Assembly: GCA_021849295.1 (NCBI GenBank) | Contig: JAJZTA010000012.1 | Location: 1 to 64,000, forward strand | DNA: 64,000 nucleotides | Direction: 5' to 3' | Origin: Pseudomonadota bacterium | Lineage (GTDB): Bacteria > Pseudomonadota > Alphaproteobacteria > Micavibrionales > UBA2020 | Shown here: positions 35,128 to 54,173 of the stretch, one piece after another | Layout: each line of letters begins with the position of its first letter | Position numbering within the stretch: the first letter of the stretch is position 1 | The notes under the pieces: generated by a model | Told to the model about the DNA's origin: nothing | What the model saw: only the letters and a program-made list of their open reading frames with translations | Database searches by the model: none | Translations under genes and position numbers: made by a program

Positions 35128-35166
35128 GGACAGGTGGCCGAGTGGTTGAAGGCGCTAGTCTCGAAA
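35128..35166 (+). other. attL: 5' half of disrupted tRNA-Ser(CGA), core GCTAGTCTCGAAA (35154-35166)
   Basis: GGACAGGTGGCCGAGTGGTTGAAGGCGCTAGTCTCGAAA; the 3' half is found at 54110-54173. Confidence 0.85.
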
Positions 35167-35285
35167 GCTACTAACTTCAAATTACATCACGAAATTATCA
35201 ATAAATATCAAACGGTTAAGATTGTTAATCTTTCCGTATTATACTTACACATGTGTTACACACTTTTCGTTGATGGAGTGTACCC

Positions 35286-36701
35286 ATGACAGCCGAAACG
35301 AACGTAGAATCTCACAGCATTATGGATGGTAAAGTCCAACTCTATAAGCGCGAGGAGAGCAGATTCTGGCAATGCTCGACATACATGGACGGTCAAAATC
35401 ACCGTACCTCCACCAAGGAAGAAACCCTGACTATGGCAAAGGAATTTGCCAGAGAATGGTACATGATTGCCTATGCAGATTCAGTACGGAGAAACCGTAA
35501 CGCGAGAACTTCCCGACTTCTGGAAAGGTTTGAGCCTAAAGTAAACCTTCCGGCGGTTATTCCTCAACCTAATGTAATCACCCCTGCTACCGCCTCGCAG
35601 CCTGTTCCGCAGGATGCCCCTGCCATCCAGCCATCTGAAATTTTCCCACCAAGGAACTCCCCGCAGCCGTTCAATCAGGCTCCGACAATCATCATTGAGA
35701 ATGTCGTTAAACCCTCTACCCCGACTTTCAGGGAAGCGGCGGAGAAGTTCTTAGCCGAATACGAAATCATGACGGAGGGGCAGAGAAGCAAGGAGTGGAC
35801 TTGGCAACACCGAATGAGGATTGAGGTTCACCTTCTGCCGTTCTTCGGTGACAAGCCCGTAAGTGAAATTAACGCGGGTCTGGTCAACGAATACCGCATG
35901 AGACGCAGAACGATTGGTCACAGGGGGCGGAAGCCTGGGCGCAGCACCCTTCATCATGAGACTGTAACTTTGCGCATGGTTCTCAAGACAGCGCATAACT
36001 ATGGCTGGCTTCAATTCGTACCAAATATTTCCGCCCCCTACAAAACATCAGGGAAAGTAAAGCATCGTGCTTGGTTCTCCAAAGAAGAATACGAAACGCT
36101 TTACGAAGAAACACGCAAACGCTCTGAAAATCCCCCCAAGGATAAATATAATGAACGCTATAAATATGTTTGGGAGGACTTGCACGATTACGTCCTGTTC
36201 ATGGGTAACACAGGTTTGCGGGCTGACGAGGCCGCAAACCTTGAATACAGGGACGTAAAGATCGTGAAAGACCAAGCTACTGGTGAGCGCATACTTGAAA
36301 TTGAAGTGCGCGGAAAGCGCGGCGTAGGCTTTTGCAAAAGCACGAAGGGCGCGGTCTATCCCTTCCAGCGTATGCGTAAAAGGCATAACGGTCAGCCTAC
36401 CGATAAAATCTTCGGTAGGACTCCCCGCGTTGTACTTAACAAAGTCCTAGTTCATTTGAAGCTGAAGTTCGACAGGGATGGCAATGTCAGAACTGCTGGC
36501 AGCTTGCGCCATACTTACATCTGCCTACGGCTCATGGATGGGGCAGACATCTATCAAATTGCTAAAAACTGCCGCACAAGCGTTAAAATGATCCATGATT
36601 TCTACGCTATCCATCTTAAAAATTACCTAGACGCGGCAAAAATTAACGTCAGAAAAATCACTAAAAAGAGCAATAAAAACAAAGAGGAAACTAATTCTTG
36701 A
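35286..36701 (+). CDS. Tyrosine recombinase / phage-type integrase
   Basis: NTGLRADEAANLEYRD box; SLRHTYICLRLMDGADIYQIAKNCRTSVKMIHDFYAIH box with catalytic Tyr. Confidence 0.92.
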   Translation: MTAETNVESHSIMDGKVQLYKREESRFWQCSTYMDGQNHRTSTKEETLTMAKEFAREWYMIAYADSVRRNRNARTSRLLERFEPKVNLPAVIPQPNVITPATASQPVPQDAPAIQPSEIFPPRNSPQPFNQAPTIIIENVVKPSTPTFREAAEKFLAEYEIMTEGQRSKEWTWQHRMRIEVHLLPFFGDKPVSEINAGLVNEYRMRRRTIGHRGRKPGRSTLHHETVTLRMVLKTAHNYGWLQFVPNISAPYKTSGKVKHRAWFSKEEYETLYEETRKRSENPPKDKYNERYKYVWEDLHDYVLFMGNTGLRADEAANLEYRDVKIVKDQATGERILEIEVRGKRGVGFCKSTKGAVYPFQRMRKRHNGQPTDKIFGRTPRVVLNKVLVHLKLKFDRDGNVRTAGSLRHTYICLRLMDGADIYQIAKNCRTSVKMIHDFYAIHLKNYLDAAKINVRKITKKSNKNKEETNS

Positions 36702-36789
36702 AAATGGGCGCTTTACCGCTTATAAAAGCCCCTGCCGCGCCTTTTTGCGGCGTCCTACATTTCTATCATCAACCGTAGAAATTCTAGCT

Positions 36790-36879
36790 GGACAGGTGGC
36801 CGAGTGGTTGAAGGCACCGCTCTCGAAAAGCGGCAAGGGTGTAAGCCCTTCGTGAGTTCGAATCTCACCCTGTCCGCCA
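36790..36879 (+). tRNA. tRNA-Ser(CGA), intact, CCA encoded, inside the island
   Basis: Acceptor GGACAGG/CCTGTCC, anticodon stem CCGCT-CTCGAAA-AGCGG, long variable arm, GTTCGAATC T-loop, GCCA. Confidence 0.93.
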
Positions 36880-37052
36880 TTTCCCAACGCCCCTTTTATT
36901 TCTTCGCAGCCGATGAACAACGGCGCGGTTGCCGTGGAGCATAAAGGTCGGACGACCGGCTGCTTCACGGACGCAATGACAGATGAACGTCTGTCATGGT
37001 GGCGTGAAACGCCCTGAACAGGGCGTAGCCAGCGCACTAACTTCTTTATCCC

Positions 37053-37718
37053 TTAGCGTTTTAGCGTCCATGACGCGAAGGCGGTCGCCGCAAACGCGCC
37101 CGCCAGTTGCGCGAGGATAAACGGCAATGCGTCCTGCGGTCTGATGCCCGCGAAAGTATCGCTCATGGCGCGGGCGATGGTGACGGCGGGATTGGCGAAG
37201 GACGTTGAAGCCGTGAACCAGTAAGCCGCCGTAATGTAAGCGGCAACAGCGAGGGGAACGGCGGAAAGGTTTTGCCGGACGCAAAACCAGATCACCATAA
37301 GAAGGCCGAAGGTGGCGACAAACTCGCTCCACCATTGGGAGCCGCCTGTGCGAATTTTAGTGGAGGCGAACAGAAATGTTTCGCCAAACATCAAATGAGC
37401 GAAGGCAACGCCCAAGATTGCCGTAAGTACCTGAACACCGATATAAGCCGCAGCATCCCGCTTCGTGATTTTTCCCTGCGCCGCCATGCACAGTGTCACG
37501 GCGGGATTGAAATGCGCTCCTGAAAGCGGGGCAAAAATCAATATCAGCACCGCCAGGGCGCAGCCTGTGGCAAGGCTGTTGGCGAGAAGCGCGATAGCGG
37601 TATTACCCGCCGCCAGCTTTTCGCCCATGATACCGGAGCCGATAACAGCCATGAGCAGGAAAGCTGTTCCCATGCCTTCGGCGGCCAGCCGCCGCGATAA
37701 CGGAACCGGCTTGCTCAT
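37053..37718 (-). CDS. MIP-family aquaporin, ars-operon associated (AqpS-like)
   Basis: GAHFNPAVTLCMAA and SFANPAVTIARAMSDTFAGI NPA motifs; overlaps arsC. Confidence 0.85.
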   Translation of the reverse strand: MSKPVPLSRRLAAEGMGTAFLLMAVIGSGIMGEKLAAGNTAIALLANSLATGCALAVLILIFAPLSGAHFNPAVTLCMAAQGKITKRDAAAYIGVQVLTAILGVAFAHLMFGETFLFASTKIRTGGSQWWSEFVATFGLLMVIWFCVRQNLSAVPLAVAAYITAAYWFTASTSFANPAVTIARAMSDTFAGIRPQDALPFILAQLAGAFAATAFASWTLKR

Positions 37719-38212
37719 GAAATCGTCTCCCCGATTGTTTTGAGGTGCTTGGCAAGTTCCTGCTTATCTAGCCCAGCAGGAAGGCGCAGCAGCGCCTTAA
37801 TACGCGCCTCAAGGATCGCGTAGAAATTCTCGAAAGCCGCCATGATTTCCTCGTCCGTGCCGGTGGCATGAGCGGGGTCGGGAACGCCCCAATGCGCCTT
37901 GACAGGCGCACCGAAGAAAACTGGACATGCTTCACCCGCTGCGTTGTCGCAGACGGTAATCACAATGTCGATCGGCGTATTCGCAAATTCATCCCATGAC
38001 TTGCTGCGATAACCGGAAGTCGGGATACCCTTGGATTGCAGCAAGGCAAGGCTCTTCGGATGCACCGTGCCCGTGGGCTTGCTTCCCGCGCTTACTGCAT
38101 GGAAGCGGCCTTTCCCCAAGTGGTTCAAAGCGGCCTCTGCCATGATGGAGCGGCAGGAGTTGCCCGTGCAAAGGATGAGAACTTTCTGAGGCGAAGTCAT
38201 TAGGGGCAGCAT
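37715..38212 (-). CDS. arsC: Arsenate reductase, low-MW phosphatase type
   Basis: VLILCTGNSCRSIMAEAAL (CX5R); GVPDPAHATGTDEEIM. Confidence 0.9.
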   Translation of the reverse strand: MLPLMTSPQKVLILCTGNSCRSIMAEAALNHLGKGRFHAVSAGSKPTGTVHPKSLALLQSKGIPTSGYRSKSWDEFANTPIDIVITVCDNAAGEACPVFFGAPVKAHWGVPDPAHATGTDEEIMAAFENFYAILEARIKALLRLPAGLDKQELAKHLKTIGETIS

Positions 38213-38664
38213 CCTTTAGCCGAGGCCGGGTTATCGCAGCAGCCGGAGGCTTGTTCTTCGGGAGCGCAACAGCCGGAATCCTGCGGCTTCGCCGCCTTGA
38301 AGATTTCCGCATCTTCCATTGTGCGGTAGGTTTCCCAAGGGATTCCGGCGGGGTCATGCACCCATGACTTTTCAGAGCGGGCGTAGCAACAGACCGTTTC
38401 GCCCTCGTCAACGACCGCCAAATCCGCTTTCTTCATGCGTTCGCGCAACTCGGAAAGCTCGCTTTCCTCGTCCACCTGTATCCCAAGGTGGTTCACGCCC
38501 GTTTCCGCTCGTGTCGAAATGGCAAAGTTTACATGGGGATTGTCGAGCATCCACTTGGCATAGTCGGGTTTCTGTTTGATGGGTTCCGTGCCGAATAACG
38601 CGCTGTAGAACCGGACAGACTGGTCAAGGTTTTCGACACCCACATGGATGTGCAGCCGTTTCAT
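38200..38664 (-). CDS. arsI: ArsI/CadI-family VOC protein (candidate C-As lyase)
   Basis: MKRLHIHVGVENLDQSVRFYSALFG; VNHLGIQV; vicinal Cys TVCCYARSEKSWVHDPAGIPWETY; Cys-pair tail GCCAPEEQASGCCDNPASAKGCC. Confidence 0.82.
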   Translation of the reverse strand: MKRLHIHVGVENLDQSVRFYSALFGTEPIKQKPDYAKWMLDNPHVNFAISTRAETGVNHLGIQVDEESELSELRERMKKADLAVVDEGETVCCYARSEKSWVHDPAGIPWETYRTMEDAEIFKAAKPQDSGCCAPEEQASGCCDNPASAKGCCP

Positions 38665-39038
38665 GATTTCTTCTCCTTCTTGGCTGGAACGCAGCAGTTC
38701 GAAAGTTCGATCACGCTGCACCCTTTCTTTTTATCGTTGCGGATACTGGCAAATTCGACGCTGCAACAGTCTTCGACCATGAAGCGGATAAGGCCAGTAA
38801 AGAACTCGAAATTGGCGGTATAGATGATCGAGCGCCCCTCTCGGCGCGGTATCACCAGTCCCGCATTGCTCATGTGGGAAAGGTGGAAGGACATTGTATT
38901 CGCCGGGATTCCCAGCTTTTCGCTCAAACTCCCGGCGGGGGCGCCCCCTGTGCCATGTTCCACCAGCAGGCGGAACACCTTAAGGCGGGTTTCCTGAGAC
39001 AATGCGTCAAACGCTATAACTGCTTCTTGTATATCCAT
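38661..39038 (-). CDS. arsR: ArsR-family repressor
   Basis: FDALSQETRLKVFRLLVEHGTGGAPAGSLSEKLGIPANTMSFHLSHMSNAGLV. Confidence 0.9.
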   Translation of the reverse strand: MDIQEAVIAFDALSQETRLKVFRLLVEHGTGGAPAGSLSEKLGIPANTMSFHLSHMSNAGLVIPRREGRSIIYTANFEFFTGLIRFMVEDCCSVEFASIRNDKKKGCSVIELSNCCVPAKKEKKS

Positions 39039-39040
39039 AC

Positions 39041-39056
39041 TTCCAGAATATTGGAA
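39041..39056. promoter_or_regulatory. Candidate ArsR operator
   Basis: TTCCA-GAATAT-TGGAA inverted repeat immediately upstream of arsR. Confidence 0.5.
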
Positions 39057-39126
39057 ATATACCGATTCTGTCAAGGGGCATGAATCCGAAAGGTGCGCGG
39101 GATAGCGCACCTTTCGTCGTGAGCCT

Positions 39127-39327
39127 CTAAAAGCGCGGCCCGCGAGGCTTCAACGCTCGTTTGCGCTGAAGCACGCGCTGAATGTTTTCCAGCGTCATCG
39201 TCGCCAGCGGGCAATCCGCCGCCGCCAGATTGCGGCGGGAGAGATCGTTCAGTATCGCGTTGTACTTCTGGCGCAGCTCCATTTCGTTCAAGTGTTCGAG
39301 TTCCTGCGTCGTGATGATGTACGTCAT
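39127..39327 (-). CDS. Small hypothetical protein
   Basis: 66 aa ORF with coding-like composition. Confidence 0.4.
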   Translation of the reverse strand: MTYIITTQELEHLNEMELRQKYNAILNDLSRRNLAAADCPLATMTLENIQRVLQRKRALKPRGPRF

Positions 39328-39968
39328 GTTTCGCTCCTGTCTTTCTGACCGCGACCATCGCGGCCTTCATGACGCGGACTGGTCAGCGCGTTCGACTGAC
39401 AGCACTTGACGGAACGAAGAGGAGGAATCGCAGCGGAGCGGCAGCGACGACCGATTTGCGGGCATTAAGGCGAACCGATGCCAGGATGCGAATGAAAAGG
39501 CCGTGTAGCGAGGCAGAAGGCAGGAGCAAAGAAACTGCGGACTTCATCTCCCTTTGACGCAATTAAGGAAGCGAGAACAGCAACGGAATGAGAGCCAGCA
39601 ACAAGGCAGATAGTGAATGATAAGACCGAAACGGCGGAAGAATTGACCGCCCAAGACAAAGACGCTCAGGAAAATATACAAGCGAGCAGCTGGGCAAATG
39701 TGCTGCAAGCAGCGCACCGCGCTTTACTCGCAGGCTCACGAAGCCAACTGCGTTGTCTTCGCCCTTCGGGTTTCAATCGCTTTCGCAAGAAATGCGGATG
39801 CAAATTTTGAGTGGGGGCAGCCCCCGACAACCGCCAAGCACAAACTGAGCCAAGAAAATTGCGTTTAGAGTCGAGGCAATGCAAGCGCATCGCCTCCAAA
39901 ACGACAGATTTTCTTGCTCACTTTCTGCTTGTCTGTCGCCTCCCCCGTTGCGCTCGCCGCTTGGCGTT

Positions 39969-39988
39969 CAGGTCGCATACGCGACCTG
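39969..39988. promoter_or_regulatory. Perfect hairpin/palindrome upstream of the ardA gene group
   Basis: CAGGTCGC-ATAC-GCGACCTG. Confidence 0.5.
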
Positions 39989-40013
39989 CAAACAACCAAG
40001 AAGGAGAGCAGAA

Positions 40014-40247
40014 ATGACTAAGAAAACGATGAAATGGAACGGACTCACGCTCGAAATCAGCGCAGAGCCGAACGCCCTTCTTTCCCGCCTTCAAGGGGAA
40101 GAAGTAACCAGCCTGAAAGTGACCAGCGCCGCGAGCGCGAAGCCTCTTATCAATGACACCTTTGCCGCGTCTCTCATTCAGACGGCAGGGGGAGCCGCGA
40201 ACTTTGTTGATGTGATGCTTTCCGCAGAACTTCAACAGGCGGCGTAA
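40014..40247 (+). CDS. Small hypothetical protein upstream of ardA
   Basis: RBS AAGGAGAG then ATG; MTKKTMKWNGLTLEISAEPNALLSRLQGEEV... Confidence 0.6.
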   Translation: MTKKTMKWNGLTLEISAEPNALLSRLQGEEVTSLKVTSAASAKPLINDTFAASLIQTAGGAANFVDVMLSAELQQAA

Positions 40248-40257
40248 GGGGGCGGTC

Positions 40258-40374
40258 ATGCAATCAGAACCTTACAAAAATCCGGACTTCTGGCAGCAAG
40301 AGCCAATCCACGGCGACTTCAACCGGGCTTCAGACTTCGATACCTGGCTGGATAAACTTTTCGGGGAGGAATAA
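40258..40374 (+). CDS. 38-aa small ORF between 40014 ORF and ardA
   Basis: MQSEPYKNPDFWQQEPIHGDFNRASDFDTWLDKLFGEE, stop 2 nt before ardA start. Confidence 0.5.
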   Translation: MQSEPYKNPDFWQQEPIHGDFNRASDFDTWLDKLFGEE

Positions 40375-40376
40375 CC

Positions 40377-40889
40377 ATGACACAGCTTTACGCACAGCCC
40401 TATGATATTTCCGCGACGGGGTTTTTCTTCGATACGCGGGAAGAATACGAGCAAAAAGCGGCGAAGAACCGCAATCATTACGGCCAGCCCGTTGAGGAAT
40501 ACGAACTGCAATTCATCGATGGAGAGGACATTGATTGCCAGTTGTTCAAAGCCCTGAGCGTATGTCAGGCGACCTTTGGAAAGTATCTGGAAGCCTGCGA
40601 CGAGTGGAGTGAGGACGAGAAGCGGAAAATCATTATCGCCGTTGGCGAATGTGGCTACAGCTACAGCTTCAACTTCGACAAAAACAGTCCGGACGACTTT
40701 GAGGTGGACATTTACGAACTGGACAGCCTCAAGGAATTGGCGGAGCAGTTTGTTGACGAAGGGCTTTTCGGCCCAATCCCCAAGGCTATCGAGAACTATC
40801 TGGACTATGACGCGATAGCCCGCGACCTGGGGCTTGACTATTCGGAAATCACTATCGCCGGGACAAACCTGATTTACAGATGCAGCTAG
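40377..40889 (+). CDS. ardA: ArdA-family antirestriction protein
   Basis: Acidic; ELAEQFVDEGLFGPIPKAIENYLDYDAIARDLGLDYSEI matches the ArdA C-terminal pattern. Confidence 0.85.
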   Translation: MTQLYAQPYDISATGFFFDTREEYEQKAAKNRNHYGQPVEEYELQFIDGEDIDCQLFKALSVCQATFGKYLEACDEWSEDEKRKIIIAVGECGYSYSFNFDKNSPDDFEVDIYELDSLKELAEQFVDEGLFGPIPKAIENYLDYDAIARDLGLDYSEITIAGTNLIYRCS

Positions 40890-40962
40890 AAAGGGCGAAG
40901 GCCGCCGCCGGCAGAGAACCGGCGGCGGCCTTCGCGTCCTATAAACTGAAAGACGAAAAAGA

Positions 40963-41418
40963 TTAGGCGACTTTTTTCTTGAGCTTCTTCTCGCTTCTGT
41001 CTCGTCTATGCGCATGGCATTTGCCGTGATCGTAGAGAACTTCGATAACCCGACAATCCGCGATCCTGCCGGAGCCACCGTGCTCCAGCATACGCATAAG
41101 TTCAGCGCGAAGAATCTTGAGACTGGCCAGCCGTTCTTCCACCGCCGCAAGATGATTTCGGGCGATGGTATCGACGGTCTGACAGGAGGCCTTGTGGTCG
41201 CCCGAAACTGATAGAATCTCTCTAATCTGGTCAATTTCAAAGCCAAGTTCCCGTGCGTGACGGACAAATGAAAGACGTTTCACGTCGTTGTCTGAATAAC
41301 GGCGCTGCTTGCCCGAAGTGCGGTCAGGCTTCGGGAGCAGTTTAATATTTTCATAATATCTAATCGTTTCTATGCGGACGCCGCTTTGCGCCGAGAGTTC
41401 ACCAATCGTTAAAAACAT
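40963..41418 (-). CDS. MerR-family heavy-metal regulator (ZntR/CadR type)
   Basis: TIGELSAQSGVRIETIRYYENIKLLPKPDRTSGKQRRYSDNDVKRLSFVRHARELGF; conserved Cys; divergent from CDF. Confidence 0.88.
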   Translation of the reverse strand: MFLTIGELSAQSGVRIETIRYYENIKLLPKPDRTSGKQRRYSDNDVKRLSFVRHARELGFEIDQIREILSVSGDHKASCQTVDTIARNHLAAVEERLASLKILRAELMRMLEHGGSGRIADCRVIEVLYDHGKCHAHRRDRSEKKLKKKVA

Positions 41419-41419
41419 C

Positions 41420-41450
41420 TTGAACCTCTAGTGACTATAGGTCGTAACAT
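41420..41450 (+). promoter_or_regulatory. MerR-type promoter/operator with 19 bp spacer
   Basis: TTGAAC-N19-TAACAT with ACCTCTAGTGACTATAGGT dyad in the spacer. Confidence 0.75.
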
Positions 41451-41473
41451 GGCTCAAATTTGAGGAAGAGTCC

Positions 41474-42484
41474 ATGCCTAAACATACACATGACGACCAT
41501 GATCACAAACACGATCACAAAAGCGGCCAAAACCAAAAGCCTGAAAAGCATGATCACGATGACGCCCATAAACATGGGCATCATGGACATCATCATGTGC
41601 CAAAGAATTTTGACCGCAGCTTCGCCATTGGAGCGTTCCTGAACTTCGCCTTCGTAGGAGCGGAGCTGTTTTACGGGTACATGGCACATTCGTTGGCTTT
41701 GGTGGCCGATGCCGTACATAATTTCTCTGATGTGATAGGGCTGCTACTGGCTTGGGGTGCGGCTTGGCTTGGACGCCTAAGCCCCACCGATGAACGCACC
41801 TATGGTTTTCGTGGCGCGTCGATTCTGGCGGGGTTGGCAAATTCGGGCATGCTGTTCCTCGTAACGGGCGGAATTATCATCGAGTCCGTCCAGCGCCTCG
41901 CGCACCCGCAGCCGCTTGCGACGATGACAATGGTGTATGTCGCGTCCATCGGCATCGTTATCAACTTTGTCACGGCTATGCTGTTCTGGCGCGGGCAGAA
42001 AGATGACCTGAACATTCGCGCTGCGTTTATTCACATGATGGGGGATGCGGCGATAGCCTTTGGCGTCGTAATCACGGCGCTCATCATCCGCATGATGGGA
42101 GCCGGCTGGCAATGGCTTGACCCGGCCAGCGGCCTTGTGATTTCGACCATTATCGTTATCGGATGCTGGGATGTCGCCAAGGAAGCGCTGCACCTGTCCC
42201 TCGACGGAGTTCCCAAACACATCGACCGTCGTGGCATCATCGTCTTTTTGCACGGATTACCGGGAGTGACGGGCATGCACGACCTGCATATTTGGGCGAT
42301 GAGCACAACCGAAACCGCGCTGACGGTTCATCTTATGCGGCCCAAGATTCCCGCTGACGACAATTTCTTGAATGATGTCGCGTTTGAACTGAAATCGAAT
42401 TTCAAAATTGACCACGCCACAATCCAGATTGAAGTGGGCAACGCAAGGGAAGCTTGCAGGCTGGCGCCGAAGGAAGTGATATAG
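41474..42484 (+). CDS. CDF-family cation efflux protein (CzcD-like)
   Basis: His-rich N-terminus; LVADAVHNFSDVIGLLLAWGA; SLDGVPKHIDR. Confidence 0.92.
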   Translation: MPKHTHDDHDHKHDHKSGQNQKPEKHDHDDAHKHGHHGHHHVPKNFDRSFAIGAFLNFAFVGAELFYGYMAHSLALVADAVHNFSDVIGLLLAWGAAWLGRLSPTDERTYGFRGASILAGLANSGMLFLVTGGIIIESVQRLAHPQPLATMTMVYVASIGIVINFVTAMLFWRGQKDDLNIRAAFIHMMGDAAIAFGVVITALIIRMMGAGWQWLDPASGLVISTIIVIGCWDVAKEALHLSLDGVPKHIDRRGIIVFLHGLPGVTGMHDLHIWAMSTTETALTVHLMRPKIPADDNFLNDVAFELKSNFKIDHATIQIEVGNAREACRLAPKEVI

Positions 42485-42554
42485 CCCAACAAGGTAGGTT
42501 CGGCGCAACGCAATGGCGCTTCCCGCCGACGTGGAATCGTGCTATCATTATCAT

Positions 42555-42947
42555 ATGTGTGCGAATGTTATAGTCAGAGCGAAGCCGACCGTCTCCGAAA
42601 GCTGCGCGATTCCCTGCTTCAAGCAGGGACTTGTGAAAAAGCTGCAAGAGGAAATGCCTCAAGACGAGGCATTGGAGGATATGCGGGCGGTTTTTGCGGC
42701 GCTGGCCGACAAAGCCCGCCTTAAAATCCTCTATTCCCTCAAGGACGGGCAGGAACTTTGCGTGTGCGATGTGGCCCATGTCGTCGGGACGACCGTTTCC
42801 ACGGCTTCCCACCACCTACGCAAGCTGCGGGATTTGAAGCTTCTGAAATACCGCAACGACGGCAAGATGGCCTATTACTCGCTGAAAAGCGAAATTGCCG
42901 CCCAGCTTGTCAGGGAAGCCCTTAAATCTGTCGGGAGAAAGAAATGA
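42555..42947 (+). CDS. ArsR/SmtB-family metalloregulator with CadC-type ELCVCD motif
   Basis: LADKARLKILYSLKDGQELCVCDVAHVVGTTVSTASHHLRKLRDLKLL. Confidence 0.9.
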   Translation: MCANVIVRAKPTVSESCAIPCFKQGLVKKLQEEMPQDEALEDMRAVFAALADKARLKILYSLKDGQELCVCDVAHVVGTTVSTASHHLRKLRDLKLLKYRNDGKMAYYSLKSEIAAQLVREALKSVGRKK

Positions 42948-44128
42948 CTTCCGACAAGGACGCCGAAGACAAGGCATTGCAGATCGTAACGCAGCAACTG
43001 GCCGAAGCCGTCGCCGCCGCGAAGTGCCACAAATGCGGCTGCCTTCAGCAGACCGTGGAAGCTCTTTCCACCACAGACGCCGGAAAGGGCGCACTTGCGG
43101 AGCAGCTTTCGAAGGCAAGGGCGGTATTCCAGCCCAAGAAATACGATTGCCTTGGCTGCGCGGTATGCTGGCCTGCGGTCGCTGCAAATGCTTTTGCCGA
43201 GGCTTTTCCGGCGGCGAGTGAAGGGCTTGACCTATGCCCGACCGAGGAGCCGGAAGTACGCAAGGGCTGGCCTCCTTTGCCGGGGGATTACCATGTTGTC
43301 CGTTCGCGCGCCCCTGTCGCGGTTTGCACCCTGAACAGCGGCGGCCTTGCGGCGCGGCTGAACGAGCTTTCGCCGGAAGGTCTGTCTATCGCCGGAACAC
43401 TGCATACGGAAAACCTCGGGATTGAGCGCATCATTAAAAATGTCGTTGCCAATCCCCATTTACGGTTTCTCATCCTGTGCGGGGAGGACACACAACAGGC
43501 TATCGGGCATTTGCCGGGGCAAACGCTGCACAGCCTGTTTCTGAACGGCGTTGACGAGCGCCAGCGCATTATCGGCGCGAAAGGCAAGCGGCCTTTTCTC
43601 AAGAACGTGACGCGGGAAGAAATTGACGCTTTCCTGAAGCAGATTGAACTTGTCCCGCGTATCGGTGAAATGGACGAAGCCGTTATCGTCAAGGAAATCG
43701 GCGAATTGTTTAAGCGCGACCCCGGCCCCGTTGAACACTGCGTCGCGGCCAAGGCTGTGGAAACGGTGCAGGCATCGGAGCAGAAGCAGCTCAAACTGGA
43801 CAAAGCCGGATACCTTGTCGTGTACCCCGACGCACGGCGCAACCTGATTGTCATGGAACACTACACCAATCAGGGGGTGCTGGATTGCATCATCGAGGGC
43901 ACGACGACAGCTGCGCTTTACAGCACGGCGATTGCACGGGGGTTTTTGACCGTGCTTGACCATGCCGCCTATATCGGGGCGGAACTAGCGAAGGCGGAAG
44001 CCAGCCTGTTGACCGGAGGGTCCTATGTGCAGGACAAGGCCGCCGGAGAAATTGCCAAGCCGCAGGAAAAATCCTGCGGCACTTCCTGCGAAACAGGCAA
44101 TAAGGGGGAAAAATGCGGGGAAAAGTAG
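42944..44128 (+). CDS. MtrA-like (tetrahydromethanopterin S-methyltransferase subunit A-like) + DUF4346 protein with Cys-rich N-terminal domain
   Basis: CHKCGC...CLGCAVCWP; YHVVRSRAPVAVCTLNSGGLA...TENLGIERIIKNVVANPHLRFLILCGED...GHLPGQTLHSLFLNGVDE; LDKAGYLVVYPDARRNLIVMEHYTN. Confidence 0.75.
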   Translation: MTSDKDAEDKALQIVTQQLAEAVAAAKCHKCGCLQQTVEALSTTDAGKGALAEQLSKARAVFQPKKYDCLGCAVCWPAVAANAFAEAFPAASEGLDLCPTEEPEVRKGWPPLPGDYHVVRSRAPVAVCTLNSGGLAARLNELSPEGLSIAGTLHTENLGIERIIKNVVANPHLRFLILCGEDTQQAIGHLPGQTLHSLFLNGVDERQRIIGAKGKRPFLKNVTREEIDAFLKQIELVPRIGEMDEAVIVKEIGELFKRDPGPVEHCVAAKAVETVQASEQKQLKLDKAGYLVVYPDARRNLIVMEHYTNQGVLDCIIEGTTTAALYSTAIARGFLTVLDHAAYIGAELAKAEASLLTGGSYVQDKAAGEIAKPQEKSCGTSCETGNKGEKCGEK

Positions 44129-44502
44129 TCGGATTGATTTGCGTGATAGCCATTTCTTTCGGCATCATTATTTACAAGCAGACACTGACCGCAGGGGCTT
44201 CCCAACCAGAACCCAGCAAGCCGTGGGTTCTTTTGGTGGCCGAATTACGCGAAGCGGACGAGGCCCATGACTCCTGCGCAGATATTATTCGGCTAGTAAG
44301 AGAGGCACAGGCGCGAGGAATCAAGACCGAAGAACTGACGCCGCAGAGCGATTCTCCGCTTCTGAGCAAATATCACGTCCTGATCATTCCGACAGTCGTC
44401 ATTGTCGGAGGCGACGGGCAAGAGAAGGCGAGGTTTGAAGGCGAAGACGAAAAGACCGTCAAGGCTCTGAAAGAGCAGCTTTCAAAGTTGAAAGAGGGTT
44501 AG
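44113..44502 (+). CDS. Membrane-anchored thioredoxin-fold-like protein lacking CxxC
   Basis: N-terminal TM; WVLLVAELREADEAHDSCADII; YHVLIIPTVVIVGGDG (cis-Pro region). Confidence 0.6.
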   Translation: MRGKVVGLICVIAISFGIIIYKQTLTAGASQPEPSKPWVLLVAELREADEAHDSCADIIRLVREAQARGIKTEELTPQSDSPLLSKYHVLIIPTVVIVGGDGQEKARFEGEDEKTVKALKEQLSKLKEG

Positions 44503-45165
44503 GTGGACATTGCAGCCCAGCTACATGACGCTTTGAAAGGCGGCACTCTGCTGGCGTTTCCGCTGTCGCTCATTGGTGGGCTTATCGCTGGTTTCAACCC
44601 CTGCTGCCTTGCGCTTTATCCCGCTGCCGCCGCCGCCTGCTGCACAGGGACGGCTTGCAGCCCGAGGCGCAGTTTTTTACATGCCCTAGCCTTTCTTTTG
44701 GGAATGGCATTAGCTCTGTCCCTGTTGGGACTGGCGGCGGGCATCGTGGGCCGGATAACGGGTCCAGGTATAGTCTGGCGCTACCTGATTGCGGTCATCC
44801 CGATCACTATGGGATTAAACCTCTTGGGGTGGATATCGCTGCCACTAGCAAGACTAGCGAAATTCACCGCGCGGGGCGGTGGCGCGTTTGGAACTGGCTT
44901 TGCCCTGTCCCTCGTCATCGGCCCCTGCGGAACCCCGCTGCTGGCGGCGGTTTTGTCGTATGCCGCCTACAAGGGAGGGCTGATTTATGGGGCGCTATTG
45001 CTATTTCTCTACGGTATCGGCGCTGGCACACCCATGTTGCTGGTCGGAGTTTTTGCGGGACACATCACGCAAAAGATGGAACTCGCTGGCCTTAAACATT
45101 GGGTTGATGGCGCGGCGGGCGTATTCCTCATACTGCTAGGCTTTTATTTGCTTTGGATTGCCTGA
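44503..45165 (+). CDS. CcdA-family thiol-disulfide transmembrane protein
   Basis: GGLIAGFNPCCLALYPAAAAACC; LSLVIGPCGTPLLAAVLSYAAY; 6 TM segments. Confidence 0.85.
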   Translation: MDIAAQLHDALKGGTLLAFPLSLIGGLIAGFNPCCLALYPAAAAACCTGTACSPRRSFLHALAFLLGMALALSLLGLAAGIVGRITGPGIVWRYLIAVIPITMGLNLLGWISLPLARLAKFTARGGGAFGTGFALSLVIGPCGTPLLAAVLSYAAYKGGLIYGALLLFLYGIGAGTPMLLVGVFAGHITQKMELAGLKHWVDGAAGVFLILLGFYLLWIA

Positions 45166-45170
45166 TTCCG

Positions 45171-45509
45171 CTAGTGCTGCTGGACTTCATCAATGAGTGC
45201 CGCGCGAACTTCTTCCTCACTCCAATAGAGTCTTTTCGGTTTTCCCTTCATGAGCGTTGCGCGTTTTTTTCGAATCACCGCACCGACTTTATGAGGCTTG
45301 AGGTCAGCAGCGACATTGCTTTTGGTTATCTCGGCTTTCAGGACTTTCAGCGACACAAAATCCCCGTCTATGGCGGTTACCTCGCCCGTAACCTCCTGTT
45401 CGCCCCAAGGGTGACGCTGCTTTCGTCGCCGCTTTGGAGCCCACATCGCCTCTTTCCACTTCAAGACGTCGCTCTCCAAGAAGCCATCCCCTGATTGTTT
45501 CCAAGTCAT
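45171..45509 (-). CDS. Hypothetical protein next to the relaxase
   Basis: 112 aa ORF overlapping the relaxase stop by 4 nt. Confidence 0.5.
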   Translation of the reverse strand: MTWKQSGDGFLESDVLKWKEAMWAPKRRRKQRHPWGEQEVTGEVTAIDGDFVSLKVLKAEITKSNVAADLKPHKVGAVIRKKRATLMKGKPKRLYWSEEEVRAALIDEVQQH

Positions 45510-47452
45510 GTTTTGCTCCTGTCTATCTTTGCGGAGTTAAATCGGATTGTCGCATTGGTCGGCAGCGTCGGCATAGCCGCCGACGTGCCGCCGCCGACCG
45601 GAGGCAGCAGGCCCGACCGCGCAAAGGCTTCATGCACTTCAATGACGCATGCGCGGAGATTGGGCGCGGCGGTCGGCGGGTTTATGGGTGGGCGGCGCGA
45701 AACGTCGCTTTCGTTAGCAGGCGAGTTCAGTATGGACACGACCAGCGCGACGTTATCGCGTCGCTGAACCGTCTGGATGAAGGCGGGTTCATCCAGACGT
45801 TTGTCAGGCGGCGGGCTCATGACTGTGATTTTCCACGGCGGGAGGCCGTTGAGCGAATAGCTCATATCCCGAATGAGCCCATAGAATTGCCTGTTGGCCT
45901 CTATCTGCCTTCGTTGCTCCTCCATCTTCTGCTGCAATTCGGCCTGGCGCCTGAGCAGGTCGGCAAGCTCGGCCTGTTTCGCAGCGACTTCCCTGACCCG
46001 TTCTTCCTCTTTCCTGTCTTGTGCGACCCTCTCAAGCGCCTTGATTTGCAGCGCGGTCGCCGCCCGCTCGATCAGCGAGCGGATTCTCGCCCGCATTTCA
46101 TCGGAGAGAAGGTTATTCTCAAGGGAGGCTTGCAACATCGAAATGTCGCCCGACAGGACCGACAGGCGGGCCTCGATGACGGCAAGCTGATCCACCAGCG
46201 GCGGCGCGGCCGATTTTGGCGGCGGCGGCGGTTCCGCCGCCGTGGACACGTATTGCGCCATTTCCCGGCGCAGGCGGTAAAGTTCGTAGCGGTGTTCTTC
46301 GCGGTAGAAAACAGCCGCTTTTTGCAGCTTTTGCCGTTCTTCGAGCTGCTGGCGGATGAGCGCCTGCAGCTCTTTCCTGTCCCGCTCAAGACAGGCTTTT
46401 GTTTCCGCCTCGTTTACCTTGCGGATTCTCTGATATTCCCCGCTAACACGCTCCCAAATCCCCTTAACGCCTTTTCCAAGGCGACGCGAACGCGCCTTGG
46501 TTTCCTCTATCCAGCGTTTTTGCTGCTTGTCCAACAGTTCAGCCCGCTCCTTGCGGTGGTGGGCGGTCATGGCGCGGATTTCCTGCACCAGCGGCGCGCG
46601 CATTTCCTTGGCCTTTGCCTTGGCCGCTTCGATGAAGCGTTCAAGGTTGGCGGTCATGCGCGCGGTGATAAAGCCCTTGGCCTGTTCGGCACTCGGCAGA
46701 GTTTCCGTAGCGCCTATGCGGGCTTTCAGATCGCGGGTGCCGAGGTCGAGCCAGCGCGTCAGGGAATAAACCCCGCCCTTGACGTCGATGGCGACGTAGC
46801 CACGGCGATCACCCCGCGCCAGAAAGAAGCCATTTTCTTCCAAAGCGCGGGCGAAAGTCGCCCGCGTGTCCGTCTGCTCCCAGCAGCGGCGGAACATGGC
46901 TTTAAGCGCCTGCGGGTCTTCGACCAGCCGCACCGCCTGCCGGTATTCCTCCCGCGTCAGGTGCTGGGGGCTGCGTTCTTCGCCTTTTTTCATGCCCTTT
47001 GGCATCTCCCAGCCATGCTCCAGATAGAGCTGGCGGGATACGTCCATCAATTTTCGTTTAAAGAAGTCCATATCAATAGCAACCAGCCGCTTGCCATTGA
47101 ACTGGATGCGCGACCAGACGGCATGGCAATGCCGCCGCCCGTTCTTTTCGTGGAACACGATGGCGCGGGGCTGATCGGTCAGACCCAATTTCCGCTCGAC
47201 CTCATGGATGGCCGATTCAAAGTCCTCAATCGGCACATCCTCGTTTTCCGGGGGATTGAGGCTGAGGGAGAACAGGAATTTCTCGCAGCGGGAGCCCTTG
47301 GAAACGGCTAAAGCCTCTTCCAGGGCCCCCGCCAGATCGTCGGCCATAAAGCCGCGAATATCATGCACTGCAACATGCTCGTTATCGTCCCCGTTCAGGA
47401 GGTGTTTGGCGAGTTCCGCCGAGCGCCCGCGCTTGCTGCCGTAAAGGATCAT
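45506..47452 (-). CDS. Relaxase/mobilization nuclease domain protein
   Basis: HEKNGRRHCHAVWSRIQFNGKRLVAIDMDFFKRKL (HxH relaxase motif III), long helical C-terminus. Confidence 0.88.
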   Translation of the reverse strand: MILYGSKRGRSAELAKHLLNGDDNEHVAVHDIRGFMADDLAGALEEALAVSKGSRCEKFLFSLSLNPPENEDVPIEDFESAIHEVERKLGLTDQPRAIVFHEKNGRRHCHAVWSRIQFNGKRLVAIDMDFFKRKLMDVSRQLYLEHGWEMPKGMKKGEERSPQHLTREEYRQAVRLVEDPQALKAMFRRCWEQTDTRATFARALEENGFFLARGDRRGYVAIDVKGGVYSLTRWLDLGTRDLKARIGATETLPSAEQAKGFITARMTANLERFIEAAKAKAKEMRAPLVQEIRAMTAHHRKERAELLDKQQKRWIEETKARSRRLGKGVKGIWERVSGEYQRIRKVNEAETKACLERDRKELQALIRQQLEERQKLQKAAVFYREEHRYELYRLRREMAQYVSTAAEPPPPPKSAAPPLVDQLAVIEARLSVLSGDISMLQASLENNLLSDEMRARIRSLIERAATALQIKALERVAQDRKEEERVREVAAKQAELADLLRRQAELQQKMEEQRRQIEANRQFYGLIRDMSYSLNGLPPWKITVMSPPPDKRLDEPAFIQTVQRRDNVALVVSILNSPANESDVSRRPPINPPTAAPNLRACVIEVHEAFARSGLLPPVGGGTSAAMPTLPTNATIRFNSAKIDRSKT

Positions 47453-47456
47453 GCCA

Positions 47457-47891
47457 TCATCCTCCGCCTTCGTCGGATGATGGCCTTTCCGGCAGATGGC
47501 CGAGAGCCTGCGTTAACGATTGCCGCATTTCCAGCAGCGCACGACAAGCCTCTTGGAGGGCTTGTTCGGTTTCAGGGGTAACAGGCAGGGAGCCGCTATG
47601 GGCGGCTTTGGTTAACTGGTTAACATTCTGCGGGAGCCTTGAGCGGCCCAGCGCATCCAGTACCTGGCCCAAAGCTTCGGCGTCCCTGACAGGCCTGCGG
47701 AAGACCCGTTTGCGGGCGTCCGGCACCGCGAAGAGGCAATGCCGGATGTAGTCGCCTAAAGGCAGCGGGCCTGCCTGGCTGTCCAGCAGGGCCAGTTCGG
47801 TTTCGGTCAGCCGGAAGGAAACCACCCGGCCATACCGACCGACCTTGCGGGCGGCATCGACAGGCGCAGATATATCGCTATCCCCGGTCAT
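47457..47891 (-). CDS. MobC-type relaxosome accessory protein
   Basis: VSFRLTETELALLDSQAGPLPLGDYIRHCLF...LDALGRSRLPQNVNQLTKAAHSGSLP. Confidence 0.8.
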   Translation of the reverse strand: MTGDSDISAPVDAARKVGRYGRVVSFRLTETELALLDSQAGPLPLGDYIRHCLFAVPDARKRVFRRPVRDAEALGQVLDALGRSRLPQNVNQLTKAAHSGSLPVTPETEQALQEACRALLEMRQSLTQALGHLPERPSSDEGGG

Positions 47892-48380
47892 GCGTCCCCC
47901 CCGGACGATGGACGGTGAAACAAAATTACTCAGCTATGAATGTCGGGAGGAGAAATAAATTATCGCTCGCTTACAATGCACTCCATCCCATACTTCAAGC
48001 GTAGCGCCTGTTCATTAACCGGGCTTTAACGTCCCATCGAAAGGGAAGCACAGAGTTGCGGATTGCTGCGGTGCAGCGTCCTTGACGAGCAGCACTAAAA
48101 TCCGGTACAGAAAAAGCGTAGTAAGAACGTGAATCGAAACCGTGATTTTACCCTTGTAAAACGCGGTTTTTCCTTCACTATCACCCCTGCGAATCGCGGG
48201 AAATAATATTGCAAAAAATTTTAGAATCCATACTGCACCGCCATCTCGCGGTGCAGGCAAGATGTGTTCAGTAGTACAAAACCGCCGGTTTTCGTCCTCC
48301 AGAACCTATCTTGGCAAGAGAGGGGGAAATGCCGCAGCAATCGCCGCCTGTTTTCCGCCCTCCCGTTGCATCCCTCCCCG

Positions 48381-48451
48381 GATATCCACGCCAATGCTTC
48401 AGACGAACGCTCTTAATGGTCGCGTTGTCCTGTCGTATTGGCGTGGATATC
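48381..48451. repeat. 15 bp perfect inverted repeat (candidate oriT or RNA hairpin)
   Basis: GATATCCACGCCAAT (48381-48395) / ATTGGCGTGGATATC (48437-48451). Confidence 0.75.
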
Positions 48452-48479
48452 GTGCGCCGCCGCTGCCGCGATCGGCGCA

Positions 48480-48569
48480 GGCATGGGCCAGGACGAAAAC
48501 GACAGGATGCGCCAGCCAATACTCCCGCATTGTCCGACTGTGCATCCCGCCCTCGTCCTGGCTCATGCC
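48480..48569. repeat. 17 bp inverted repeat with one mismatch and a nested 6 bp stem
   Basis: GGCATGGGCCAGGACGA / TCGTCCTGGCTCATGCC; nested GGATGC / GCATCC. Confidence 0.75.
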
Positions 48570-48885
48570 ATTGGCACTCCCGCACCGCACTCCGCGACGG
48601 CCGCCTTGCCAAGCGGTCATCGCTGGGGTTGCTCCCGTGCCAGTGGCGCCGGCGGCCGACAAGCCGCCGCGCCTTGATGTGGCCTGCCGGCCATGCACCG
48701 TAATGGCCGATGCAATGCGCCATTCAGGGAGCCTTCGTGCTGCCCCGAAACCCCATGACCAAGGAAGGCAGACTATGGTTCTCCGTTCCGGCCAACTTAT
48801 TAATTTTGATATCTGAGCTAGTTCTCAAATTGTGGTATTCTGCTATGCTTCCATCAAAAGTTAACCGCAGCTATAGGAGCGAAAA

Positions 48886-49479
48886 ATGAATGAATCGGAT
48901 CAAGCAAAAGCGATCCTTGAATCCACGCTTCGCCGTCAGGAAATGCACTGGAGTTCTCTCGCCTCGGATATTCGCCTAAGCAACGGCGTCGCAGCAGACA
49001 TTGGAATAGATGCTTTAAAAACGGCCATTCTCATTAACGCGGGGGCGATAGTCGCGCTTTTAGCATTTGCTGGACAATTGTGGAATAAAGACGAAGGTCG
49101 CAATGTAGCTTGGCAGGTGCTTAGTTCAGGAAAGCCGTTTGTACTAGGTTTAGTTTGTGCTGCTGTAGCTTTCGCCGTCGCCTATTTTTATCAGTCTTTC
49201 GTTACCGTTGTCTTCCAACATGCGCTTGCCAAAGTATCTGATGGTGGTGACAAGTTGAAGCCGAATTCCAGCTTTACCTGTGCGGCTAAAATTACTGCCG
49301 TGCTCATGATTGGCTTAGCTTTTGGCGCAGTCGGCTGTTTTATCGATGGGTCGTTTGCCGTAGTAGATACTGTGCAAGTTATGAGCGTTAAAGCTGAACA
49401 AAAAACGGAATCAGTGACAACACCTTCCGACTCACAGCCTCTCAAAACTAAAAATCACGCCGTGAAACCGGCGAAGTAA
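48886..49479 (+). CDS. Hypothetical membrane protein
   Basis: Three to four hydrophobic segments in 197 aa. Confidence 0.55.
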   Translation: MNESDQAKAILESTLRRQEMHWSSLASDIRLSNGVAADIGIDALKTAILINAGAIVALLAFAGQLWNKDEGRNVAWQVLSSGKPFVLGLVCAAVAFAVAYFYQSFVTVVFQHALAKVSDGGDKLKPNSSFTCAAKITAVLMIGLAFGAVGCFIDGSFAVVDTVQVMSVKAEQKTESVTTPSDSQPLKTKNHAVKPAK

Positions 49480-49505
49480 CCAGAATATTACTGAAAGGAA
49501 AGGAG

Positions 49506-49913
49506 TTACGCGAAGAAGCTAAGAATCCATCGGTAGATGCGGGAGAACAATCCATCTTTTGTTTGATACATAGCTTGATAATATGCGCGCCTTCTCTCTT
49601 CCTCATGCGCTCTGCCTGCAATGACTTGTTCTTCTGTCCACTGACCGGACGGCATAATACCGCCTCTATAAATCCAATAATGTGACCGACATTTCTGCTG
49701 CCAATTTCCGATGGAGGGGTTCAATGATGGCCCCGCGGGAGTTTCATCAAATGCCCATTCTGTCGGCCCCAAGGGCGTTCTAATCTTGGCTCCGCAACCA
49801 CAAGCACATAGATGAACTGCTATCGCAAATTCTTCGGAAACATAAAGTACACCTTCCGTCAATTCTTTGGGCATGTACTGTACGCGCTGCAGCTTAATTT
49901 TCTTCGTTTTCAA
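49506..49913 (-). CDS. DUF6527-like zinc-binding protein
   Basis: HLCACGCGAKIRTPLGPTEWAFD...SLNPSIGNWQQKCRSHYWIYRGGI. Confidence 0.7.
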   Translation of the reverse strand: MKTKKIKLQRVQYMPKELTEGVLYVSEEFAIAVHLCACGCGAKIRTPLGPTEWAFDETPAGPSLNPSIGNWQQKCRSHYWIYRGGIMPSGQWTEEQVIAGRAHEEERRRAYYQAMYQTKDGLFSRIYRWILSFFA

Positions 49914-51099
49914 ATTTCCCCACTATTTTCAGATCGCTGATTTCGAGGAGCAGGTGGTACGGGGAGTTTTCGTCCAGATAGAACCCCCTCAACTGCTTAA
50001 ATTTTATTACTGCCAATGCGGCGTTCAACGCGTTAAGTTCACCAATTTGTATGTTTGTGCGATACATATTTTCGGGGGCATCGAAAAGCTCTGCGAGCTT
50101 TTGATCACGAATTTTTGCACCGTTCTCTGCAGAATAGTAGGTCGCGCGCATCATGCCATTTATGGGCCCCAGCTTGCGATTTAACCCCATCCCGGCATCG
50201 ATAAATGGGATTTTTTTGGAAATTAGCAGGTCAAAAATTTCGGCTCGTGACGTACCTTTGTCGACGAAAACGAAAGCAAAGGTTACACCGTCCAACTCCT
50301 CACCACATGACGCGTCAATGAACTTTGGCTTAATTGAGAGGCCATGACGGAAGTTATCATATCGTGCAGCATAAATTTCTGCTTTTTGTTTGCCTAATTC
50401 TTCCTGTCGGAGCATCCCCGGCGAACGAAACGAGTTATGAATGTAAAACCAGTCGGCGTCAAAAGCCCTGATTTCCCGCACCGGAGTTTTTACGAGGAAA
50501 TCTAAACCGTAAGAACCTGTGCCCCCAAGGCCGATCACCGCGACTACATCGTTTTCAAACTTCTTGGAGAGATCTGAAATTTCAGCTCTGCTGGTGAGCG
50601 AGTCTGTGAATTTGAAAACAGACTTATCTTCCGCGCCTTTAGATGTTCGCGACGTGTAGGGGTTGGCATTGTGAAGCTCGATTGCGGGCCCGGAAATTAT
50701 CCCTAAATAGCTTGTAATTTTTTCAAAGTGGTCTGCAAATTTTCCGACCGGCTTGCCGTTTACGCATGGTTTGTTTGAGAACGAGCGCTGAACGACGACA
50801 TCTTTATTATACTCGCTGAGTGCGAGCTTATGCTCGCCCCCACCGAGGTTCGGTATCGGCTTTCCATCAAGGCCATGCGGATGTGCCCCCGCGAAAAGTA
50901 TTTGATGATCCTCCTGAATCACCTTGTTTCCGTCAACTGGAACGAGCTTGGAGACTATCGCTCCCCATAGCAAATCTCGCTTTTCGTTCAGATAAGGAAT
51001 ATCCCGAATGATAAGGAGGTTGCTGTCGAAGCCGACAGCAAACCCCTTCTCAACAAGACGGTTCAAATCTTCGTTATGACTGACCAGTTTCTGAAACAC
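49894..51099 (-). CDS. ThiF/E1-like adenylyltransferase with family-specific N-terminal domain
   Basis: VVAVIGLGGTGSYGLDFLVKTPVREIRAFDADWFYIHNSFRSPGM (Rossmann/ThiF); GTG start overlapping the ubiquitin-like ORF. Confidence 0.85.
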   Translation of the reverse strand: MFQKLVSHNEDLNRLVEKGFAVGFDSNLLIIRDIPYLNEKRDLLWGAIVSKLVPVDGNKVIQEDHQILFAGAHPHGLDGKPIPNLGGGEHKLALSEYNKDVVVQRSFSNKPCVNGKPVGKFADHFEKITSYLGIISGPAIELHNANPYTSRTSKGAEDKSVFKFTDSLTSRAEISDLSKKFENDVVAVIGLGGTGSYGLDFLVKTPVREIRAFDADWFYIHNSFRSPGMLRQEELGKQKAEIYAARYDNFRHGLSIKPKFIDASCGEELDGVTFAFVFVDKGTSRAEIFDLLISKKIPFIDAGMGLNRKLGPINGMMRATYYSAENGAKIRDQKLAELFDAPENMYRTNIQIGELNALNAALAVIKFKQLRGFYLDENSPYHLLLEISDLKIVGKFENEEN

Positions 51100-51352
51100 T
51101 GAATTTCATCCCTTCTTTGATTTTGACAGATGCGCCGGGCGAGAGCGTGCCTTCGGGCTTATTGCCTTGGCCGTTCGTGTACTTGACCGAATAAGTGATG
51201 TTGGGATTTTGGTCGTAGTTGGGCACTTCCAGCTTCACGACCTGGGCGTACGAGATATTGGTGTTTTTCTCCCATTCGTGCGGCGTAGCGTTAACGTAGA
51301 TAGTGACCAGCTTCTCATCCTTCGCTGCGGCCTTAGCGATCGACTTGAATTG
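51074..51352 (-). CDS. Multiubiquitin-family ubiquitin-like protein (absent from ORF track; no canonical start codon in frame)
   Basis: Manual translation: SIAKAAAKDEKLVTIYVNATPHEWEKNTNISYAQVVKLEVPNYDQNPNITYSVKYTNGQGNKPEGTLSPGASVKIKEGMKFSVSETGQS*. Confidence 0.8.
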   Translation of the reverse strand, partial: QFKSIAKAAAKDEKLVTIYVNATPHEWEKNTNISYAQVVKLEVPNYDQNPNITYSVKYTNGQGNKPEGTLSPGASVKIKEGMKFSVSETGQS

Positions 51353-51510
51353 TCAATATAGGAAACATATTAATATTAGAAGTTAATAAACCACTAATTC
51401 TGAATGTAACAAATGTAAATGAATCAGTCACTTGCAAAATAAATTAATATACTGTTAATGAATTGTTTGTATAATTGACAATTAGAGTTCAACTGCTGTA
51501 GAGTCCTGTC

Positions 51511-51906
51511 ATGCGATTCGAAGATGTATATGCCGAACTCGGTGGGGTCATTAAGGCCGCTAGAGAAGCCGCCGGATTGACCCAAGATGAGCTTGCGAAG
51601 CTCATAAACTTGTCCCGTGCGTCAATTGCGAACATCGAAACAGGTCGTCAGAAAGTATTTCTGCATCAGCTGTATATGCTGGCGCATCATCTTGACGTAC
51701 CGGTGATCGACCTGCTCCCCAAGCAGAGTTCCTTTGGAAGCTGCCTTCCCTCAGACTTATCAGATGAACAAAAATTTTGGGCAGAGTCCGTCCTGGCATC
51801 ATTCGCGGGTCCCGAACAAACAATGCAATCCGCGCTCAATGACTCCGACTTGAACACTGATGAAAAAGAGTGGGCTGCATCAATTTTAAGGTCAGCAAAT
51901 GGCTAA
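51511..51906 (+). CDS. XRE-family HTH regulator
   Basis: IKAAREAAGLTQDELAKLINLSRASIANIETGRQKVFLHQLYMLA. Confidence 0.9.
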   Translation: MRFEDVYAELGGVIKAAREAAGLTQDELAKLINLSRASIANIETGRQKVFLHQLYMLAHHLDVPVIDLLPKQSSFGSCLPSDLSDEQKFWAESVLASFAGPEQTMQSALNDSDLNTDEKEWAASILRSANG

Positions 51907-52456: not shown

Positions 52457-52461
52457 TTACA

Positions 52462-54007: not shown

Positions 54008-54109
54008 GTCACTTCTCAAAAAAAAAGCGCTTGCAGTCTTACACACTTTCTTACACACTCCGTGAAGGACAGAAAAAGATCGTTATAACTCAATAGGATA
54101 ATTTGCCAT

Positions 54110-54173
54110 GCTAGTCTCGAAAACTAGTATAGGTGTAAGCCTATCGAGGGTTCGAATCCCTCCCTGTCCGCCA
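54110..54173 (+). other. attR: 3' half of disrupted tRNA-Ser(CGA)
   Basis: GCTAGTCTCGAAAACTAG...GGTTCGAATCCCTCCCTGTCCGCCA; completes the 35128-35166 5' half. Confidence 0.85.

Follow-up and report, generated by a model that had tools for sequence, protein, structure and literature searches.

Archaeal MtrA is the cobamide subunit of the methyl-H4MPT:CoM methyltransferase, and the locus described here raises the question of what a protein with the same domain might do in a bacterium, among genes of metal resistance. The locus lies in a stretch of 64,000 nucleotides from a member of the Pseudomonadota, here called the window. Between positions 42555 and 45165, reading of the sequence and of its open reading frames reveals four overlapping or abutting genes on the plus strand, all at the place given for them in the original prediction and with matches to the expected family profiles, of which that of the thioredoxin-like protein is sub-threshold. 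They encode, in this order, an ArsR/SmtB repressor with a CadC-like set of cysteines (42555..42947), a 394-aa protein made of a seven-cysteine N-terminal domain, an MtrA domain, DUF4346 and a Cys tail (42944..44128), a thioredoxin-like protein that is anchored in the membrane and has one invariant Cys (44113..44502), and a CcdA/DsbD-TM-like membrane protein with PCC ... PC(G/S/A)TP and an extra CC pair (44503..45165). The ATG at 42555 was taken as the arsR start since it coincides with that of an 85 % identical protein at locus L002 of another species of the genus; the mechanical reading frame begins at 42513. The arsR and mtrA-type genes overlap by ATGA and the mtrA-type and thioredoxin-like genes by 16 nt, while the CcdA-like gene starts with GTG and abuts its predecessor. 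This arrangement is not due to chance, because both gene order and sequence are conserved across other genera and phyla.

The sensor can be assigned with some precision. The ArsR protein matches HTH_5 (1.6e-13) and scores 84 bits with the metalloregulator profile against a cut-off of 55. Its putative ligands, an SCAIPC (CxxxC) near the N terminus and the ELCVCD motif, agree with the CadC-type sensor proposed earlier, and the same Cys set occurs at L002, L037 and L042. Judged by its position, it would control the gene of the 394-aa protein. Immediately upstream (40963-42484), a divergent pair encodes a MerR-family metal regulator that resembles CadR, ZntR and MerR, with profile scores below the equivalog cut-offs (40963..41418, minus strand), and a ZitB-like CDF cation efflux protein with a His-rich N terminus (41474..42484, plus strand). 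Two regulators adjoin here, of which ArsR alone is part of the operon.

The core of the 394-aa protein is its MtrA domain (43253..43738), which matches PF04208 at 5.4e-43 (147 bits, cut-off 25) and, at the sequence level, the solved MtrA structures 5LAA and 5L8X (E 3e-35 for 5LAA). The structure prediction that had been suggested as a check yields a model whose fold matches the same two entries (Foldseek E 2e-11). It is followed by DUF4346 (43796..44035; PterinBD-DUF4346, 3.2e-17, 63 bits) and the short Cys tail, whose length differs among members. Over its whole length the protein aligns with NF002128 (PRK00964.1-6), “tetrahydromethanopterin S-methyltransferase subunit A”, at 374 of 390 positions; however, the 517 bits reached fall below the curated cut-off of 568, and the name, with its reference to the H4MPT methyltransferase, reflects similarity and is at odds with the genomic context. 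With the MtrA proteins of known structure (5LAA, 5L8X, 8Q3V) it shares the fold, about 40 % identity in the domain and the conserved His84, Glu54, Thr53 and Asn64. In contrast to them, it bears no membrane anchor and has acquired the N-terminal domain and DUF4346, and its gene, the only one of the MtrA family in the source genome, adjoins metal genes.

The cobalamin contacts described in the MtrA crystal paper (PMC4915002) map to D115, Y116, T155, E156, G159, I163, N166 and H189 of the window protein. T155, E156, G159, N166 and H189 correspond to Thr53, Glu54, Gly57, Asn64 and His84 of 5LAA and are kept in all 24 homologs aligned. One part of the site departs from the archaeal pattern: the meander consensus GAIPF-Y/F-XEN (PMC4915002) is replaced by GKRPFLKN in the window protein and by RPxLKN (or RP-[LI]-[KR]N) in all members, which, as judged from the alignments, is a signature of this MtrA subfamily.

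The N-terminal domain (43022..43240; KCxxCxC ... CLGCxxCxP ... CP) reads KCHKCGC ... YDCLGCAVCWP ... LCP in the window protein. Across 14 diverse members, six of its seven cysteines never vary and the last one hardly does. No Pfam family and no significant PDB relative was found for it, the best profile matches being ferredoxin-like proteins, mostly of the PsaC type, at E > 0.8, and its predicted structure had no fold match. On its sequence, it is a new, unnamed domain.

The thioredoxin-like protein by itself stays below threshold (Thioredoxin_3, E=0.04), its homolog at L038 passes the Thioredoxin cut-off, and in 13 homologs the single Cys is invariant, so that the CxxC active site is absent. 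The CcdA-like protein matches DsbD_TM at 3.2e-18 (66 bits, cut-off 27) and its reactive cysteines C34 and C142 (PC ... PC) are invariant in 12 sequences; its predicted structure (pLDDT 49) is too poor to use. Comparison of lineages indicates that this membrane partner is exchangeable. The thioredoxin-like and CcdA pair accompanies the MtrA/DUF4346 gene in the window, in Acidobacteriota and at L037 and L038, a MerC protein takes its place in G106 (L042, L043), and at L011, L036, L040 and L041 the partner is a membrane protein with a GCCGSP motif. The latter (L011:3378-3914, L036:5720-6262, L040:1489-1974, L041:2976-3362, L045:8001-8354) is an unnamed family of 130-180 aa with a Cys tail and no Pfam match, whose genes adjoin MtrA/DUF4346 genes or metal ATPases. 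In a metal cluster of the Pelobacter plasmid pPRO1, with no MtrA gene beside it, a GCCGSP homolog is flanked by lspA/DUF302 on one side and a metal P-type ATPase on the other, and on a Staphylococcus plasmid a CcdA relative adjoins lspA, ZIP and metal-ATPase genes. It is possible that the GCCGSP family represents a new soft-metal transporter. Mainly because the membrane partner is exchanged, we infer that it carries metal or metal-thiol adducts and not electrons alone. The electron supply that had been assigned to the thioredoxin-like/CcdA pair found no direct support, and its replacement elsewhere by MerC-type proteins fits a hand-over of metal at least equally well.

The operon travels on an integrative mobilizable island of 18,956 bp (35167..54122) inserted into a tRNA-Ser(CGA) gene. 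The 5' part of the split tRNA gene ends at 35166 and the 3' part starts at 54110 and continues to 54173; a 13-bp direct repeat, GCTAGTCTCGAAA, which belongs to the anticodon arm, occurs at both edges (attL 35154..35166 and attR 54110..54122, plus strand). ARAGORN finds an intact tRNA-Ser(cga) in the joined flanks and in neither edge alone. Besides the tRNA target and the flanking repeats, the element has an integrase (35286..36701, plus strand; phrog_1 integrase, 1.3e-23, without Pfam match), a MobA/VirD2-type relaxase (45506..47452, minus strand; PF03432, 3.8e-14) and, upstream of the latter, a probable mobilization accessory gene assigned by position, with no family match (47457..47891, minus strand). 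It also carries an intact tRNA-Ser(CGA) gene (36790..36879, plus strand), a replacement for the split one, and an ArdA-like antirestriction gene (40377..40889, plus strand). An arsenic cluster on the minus strand (37053..39110) encodes an aquaporin (MIP), an ArsC-like protein, a protein of the ArsI/CadI family (149.6 bits, cut-off 116) and an ArsR, and adds to the Cd/Zn-type MerR/CDF pair beside the operon. The G+C content of the island is 0.527, against 0.59 and 0.57 in the flanks. In the closest relative (L002, genome G719, same genus), the operon forms one block of 2.67 kb with 83 % DNA identity and adjoins a diverged, inverted mob region. Gly/Cys-rich stretches are encoded just outside the left end of the island (34414-35000) by an imperfect repeat of 65 nt that occurs twice, at a distance of 522 nt.

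Outside the window the MtrA/DUF4346 gene is sporadic. It was found in two of eight genomes of the host genus, in 2 of 399 Pseudomonadota sampled (own genome counted) and in 7 of 297 Acidobacteriota sampled (centre counted), as well as in MAGs of Obscuribacterales and Sandaracinaceae and on plasmids of Paraburkholderia and Planococcus; phages and viral contigs gave no match. Identities of 60-64 % between the protein of the window and those of Acidobacteriota fit horizontal transfer. Most of the 21 non-redundant relatives adjoin genes for ArsR, RND, HMA/P-type ATPase, MerC or MerR proteins. By table count, an ArsR/SmtB gene lies within about 7 kb upstream at 14 of the 21 loci, and at 11 it is a direct neighbour or no more than two genes off. 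CusA/CzcA-family RND exporters adjoin the gene at L002, L003, L006, L035 and L038, while L011 has RND genes of the outer-membrane or fusion type; on the Planococcus plasmids, ArsR, an HMA protein, a CadA-type P-type ATPase and the MtrA gene stand in a row, and G106 contains two MtrA copies, each with a MerC gene directly beside it. No metal gene was seen in the stretches available at L005, L009, L018 and L039, and neither merA, merT nor merP in the window or the loci read, MerC being confined to G106. The soft-metal setting first proposed from a single locus is reinforced by these independent neighbourhoods. Two observations on gene structure may be added: in two Acidobacteriota operons a Cys-containing gene separates the MtrA gene from arsR (L007:2243-2782, L008:7448-7909; V4R match in L008), and at L010 (3000-4619) the MtrA/DUF4346 and thioredoxin-like parts share a single open frame of 539 aa, which is either a true fusion or an assembly error.

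If the pocket is to bind a corrinoid, its supply in the host becomes a point of interest. The genomes of the host genus, eight in all, contain no B12-binding domain protein above cut-off, and in G000 and G719 neither a CobA/BtuR or PduO-type adenosyltransferase nor a cobalamin riboswitch was found, the ribonucleotide reductase being the class I NrdAB. Sister genera keep a MetH-sized B12-binding protein, a pattern of lineage loss of B12 use in the host genus. Two apparent exceptions were discounted. An 800-aa NrdJ-like protein (L062:1571-3973, G000:C22; also in G719) is probably a divergent, non-RNR homolog, as the active-site motif NPCxE is absent, and a B12 match in G719 is sub-threshold and falls within a stretch overlapping a gene recognised by eye as probably IMPDH/GMP-reductase-like. 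The proposal that the 394-aa protein binds a corrinoid is thus supported by half: the pocket residues are invariant down to the Co-ligand His, but every B12 marker tested in the genus was negative. A scavenged corrinoid is possible there. Between the window and L002, dN/dS is 0.063 for the MtrA gene (0.058 in the N domain, 0.045 in the MtrA domain) at a dS of about 0.87, compared with a dS of 0.45 for NrdA and 0.64 for NrdB in the same two species. From this strong purifying selection in the absence of B12 markers it follows that the MtrA-type protein is useful in the host genus. The whole protein, pocket included, is thus under selection in a lineage with no detected B12 metabolism, with the reservation that divergence of the two copies may predate their entry into the genus.

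The reading that we favour, tentatively and at a little short of an even chance, is that of a mobile soft-metal defence operon built around a thiol-based metal-capture relay. Exposure to soft metal would release the CadC-type ArsR and de-repress the genes. The membrane partner would then take soft-metal ions or metal-thiol adducts across the membrane, thiol by thiol; here this would be the periplasm-facing single-Cys thioredoxin-like protein together with the CcdA-like protein and its vicinal Cys pairs, elsewhere MerC or the GCCGSP protein. The receiver would be the MtrA-fold protein, whose Cys domain and Cys tail would capture the metal in the cytosol ahead of efflux or further conversion. 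Its MtrA pocket may still bind a ligand, which could be a corrinoid in hosts that possess one. What the comparison of loci shows is that the cytosolic 394-aa protein keeps company with a Cys-bearing membrane protein and with genes of metal resistance. Because its relatives recur beside such genes, the cluster probably represents a type of metal defence that has not been described before. MerT, MerP and MerC offer a parallel, in which soft metal passes from a Cys-bearing membrane protein to a Cys protein of the cytosol, and MerC is itself the partner in G106; unlike the mer set, the window has no MerA, MerB or MerT, and the thioredoxin-like/CcdA pair stands in the transport place, if such is its role. 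CadC/CadA resistance to Cd and Pb shares the sensor Cys set and, in Planococcus, the adjoining CadA-type ATPase, but this operon is without an ATPase and its effector is the MtrA-Cys protein. Several points speak against a relay: the corrinoid pocket is conserved too closely for a protein that only sequesters, the reactive PC...PC cysteines of the CcdA-like protein are kept, the established role of CcdA-type proteins being the transfer of electrons and not of metal, and L005, L009, L018 and L039 have no metal gene in the stretches seen; the poor CcdA model and the N domain without a fold match add to these.

The pocket and the occasional methyltransferase neighbours would be explained by a methyl transfer that depends on a corrinoid and has a metal(loid) as acceptor or donor, a possible but on balance unlikely alternative, in which the MtrA domain holds the cobamide, an Fe-S centre in the Cys domain keeps Co reduced and the thioredoxin-like/CcdA pair gives the electrons. 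The protein would then act either as a demethylase or, in one chain, as a functional counterpart of HgcAB. The named 5LAA contacts (Thr53, Glu54, Gly57, Val/Ile61, Asn64, His84) are kept in 24/24 homologs, the CxxCxxC...CP pattern is ferredoxin-like, in keeping with the non-significant lead of PsaC-type ferredoxins, and most other hosts of the gene show B12 traits. SAM methyltransferases adjoin the MtrA gene at L042 and L010 (TehB-like), an MTHFR fragment lies in L036, and a gene of the ArsI/CadI family is present on the same island. No particular methylation or demethylation found direct support. The B12-negative host genus with its NrdAB argues against it, as does the replacement of the GAIPY-EN meander by RPxLKN in all members. 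Most of the metals that the neighbouring genes suggest (Cd, Zn, Cu/Ag types) do not undergo methylation, and methyl transfer to Hg(II) is not favoured by His-ligated Co, HgcA being Cys-ligated (PMC11588087). The likeness to HgcAB (PMC11588087), namely a corrinoid domain, a ferredoxin-like Cys motif, a Cys tail and a metal setting, is one of logic; the corrinoid domains are unrelated, ligation is by His and not by a cap-helix Cys as in HgcA, a single chain replaces two, the present system is known from sequence alone, and no operon protein matches the families of HgcA or of HgcB with its 2x[4Fe-4S]. The boldest form of the idea, that outside methanogens the MtrA fold has become a mobile protein with Fe-S and corrinoid in one chain, which adds methyl groups to a soft metal(loid) or removes them and is fed by interchangeable membrane thiol transporters, we regard as fairly improbable. 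If true, it would amount to a second, HgcAB-independent organometal route, even in aerobic bacteria.

The retained CcdA cysteines and the thioredoxin-like partner would suit a role in redox protection or repair, in which CcdA passes reductant to the thioredoxin-like protein, the MtrA/Fe-S protein serves as electron carrier, sensor or corrinoid guardian, and thiol damage by soft metals is offset with no handling of the metal itself. An extra Thioredoxin_3 protein downstream at L006 points the same way. A partner with a single Cys can form no CxxC redox pair, though, several lineages have MerC-type proteins in place of CcdA and thioredoxin, and the C-terminal Cys tails are of variable length; we consider this explanation unlikely. 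Still less probable is a non-working passenger, brought in with the island by a donor that uses B12. The mobility of the island, the presence of the gene in only 2/8 genomes of the genus and the missing B12 markers would agree with it, but all four frames are intact, and dN/dS is 0.045-0.06 in the MtrA and Cys domains at a dS of about 0.9, similar to or above the housekeeping range of 0.45-0.64. A direct function in methanogenesis or H4MPT metabolism was rejected because the partner genes are absent from the window, where no other mtr subunit gene was found.

What MtrAH does outside the methanogens is described as unclear in PMC9635834, and our search retrieved no paper on DUF4346, none that ties MtrA-type proteins to metals and, among work on CcdA in mer operons, no description of this system. 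The present analysis offers a concrete, testable role for bacterial MtrA/DUF4346 proteins, which public databases name as methanogenesis subunits, and points to a mobile metal-response system spreading among Pseudomonadota, Acidobacteriota, Bacillota and others. Should the pocket work with a corrinoid, a new branch of organometal biochemistry would come into view; should it work without one, the family would be a clean case of the reuse of a B12 fold.
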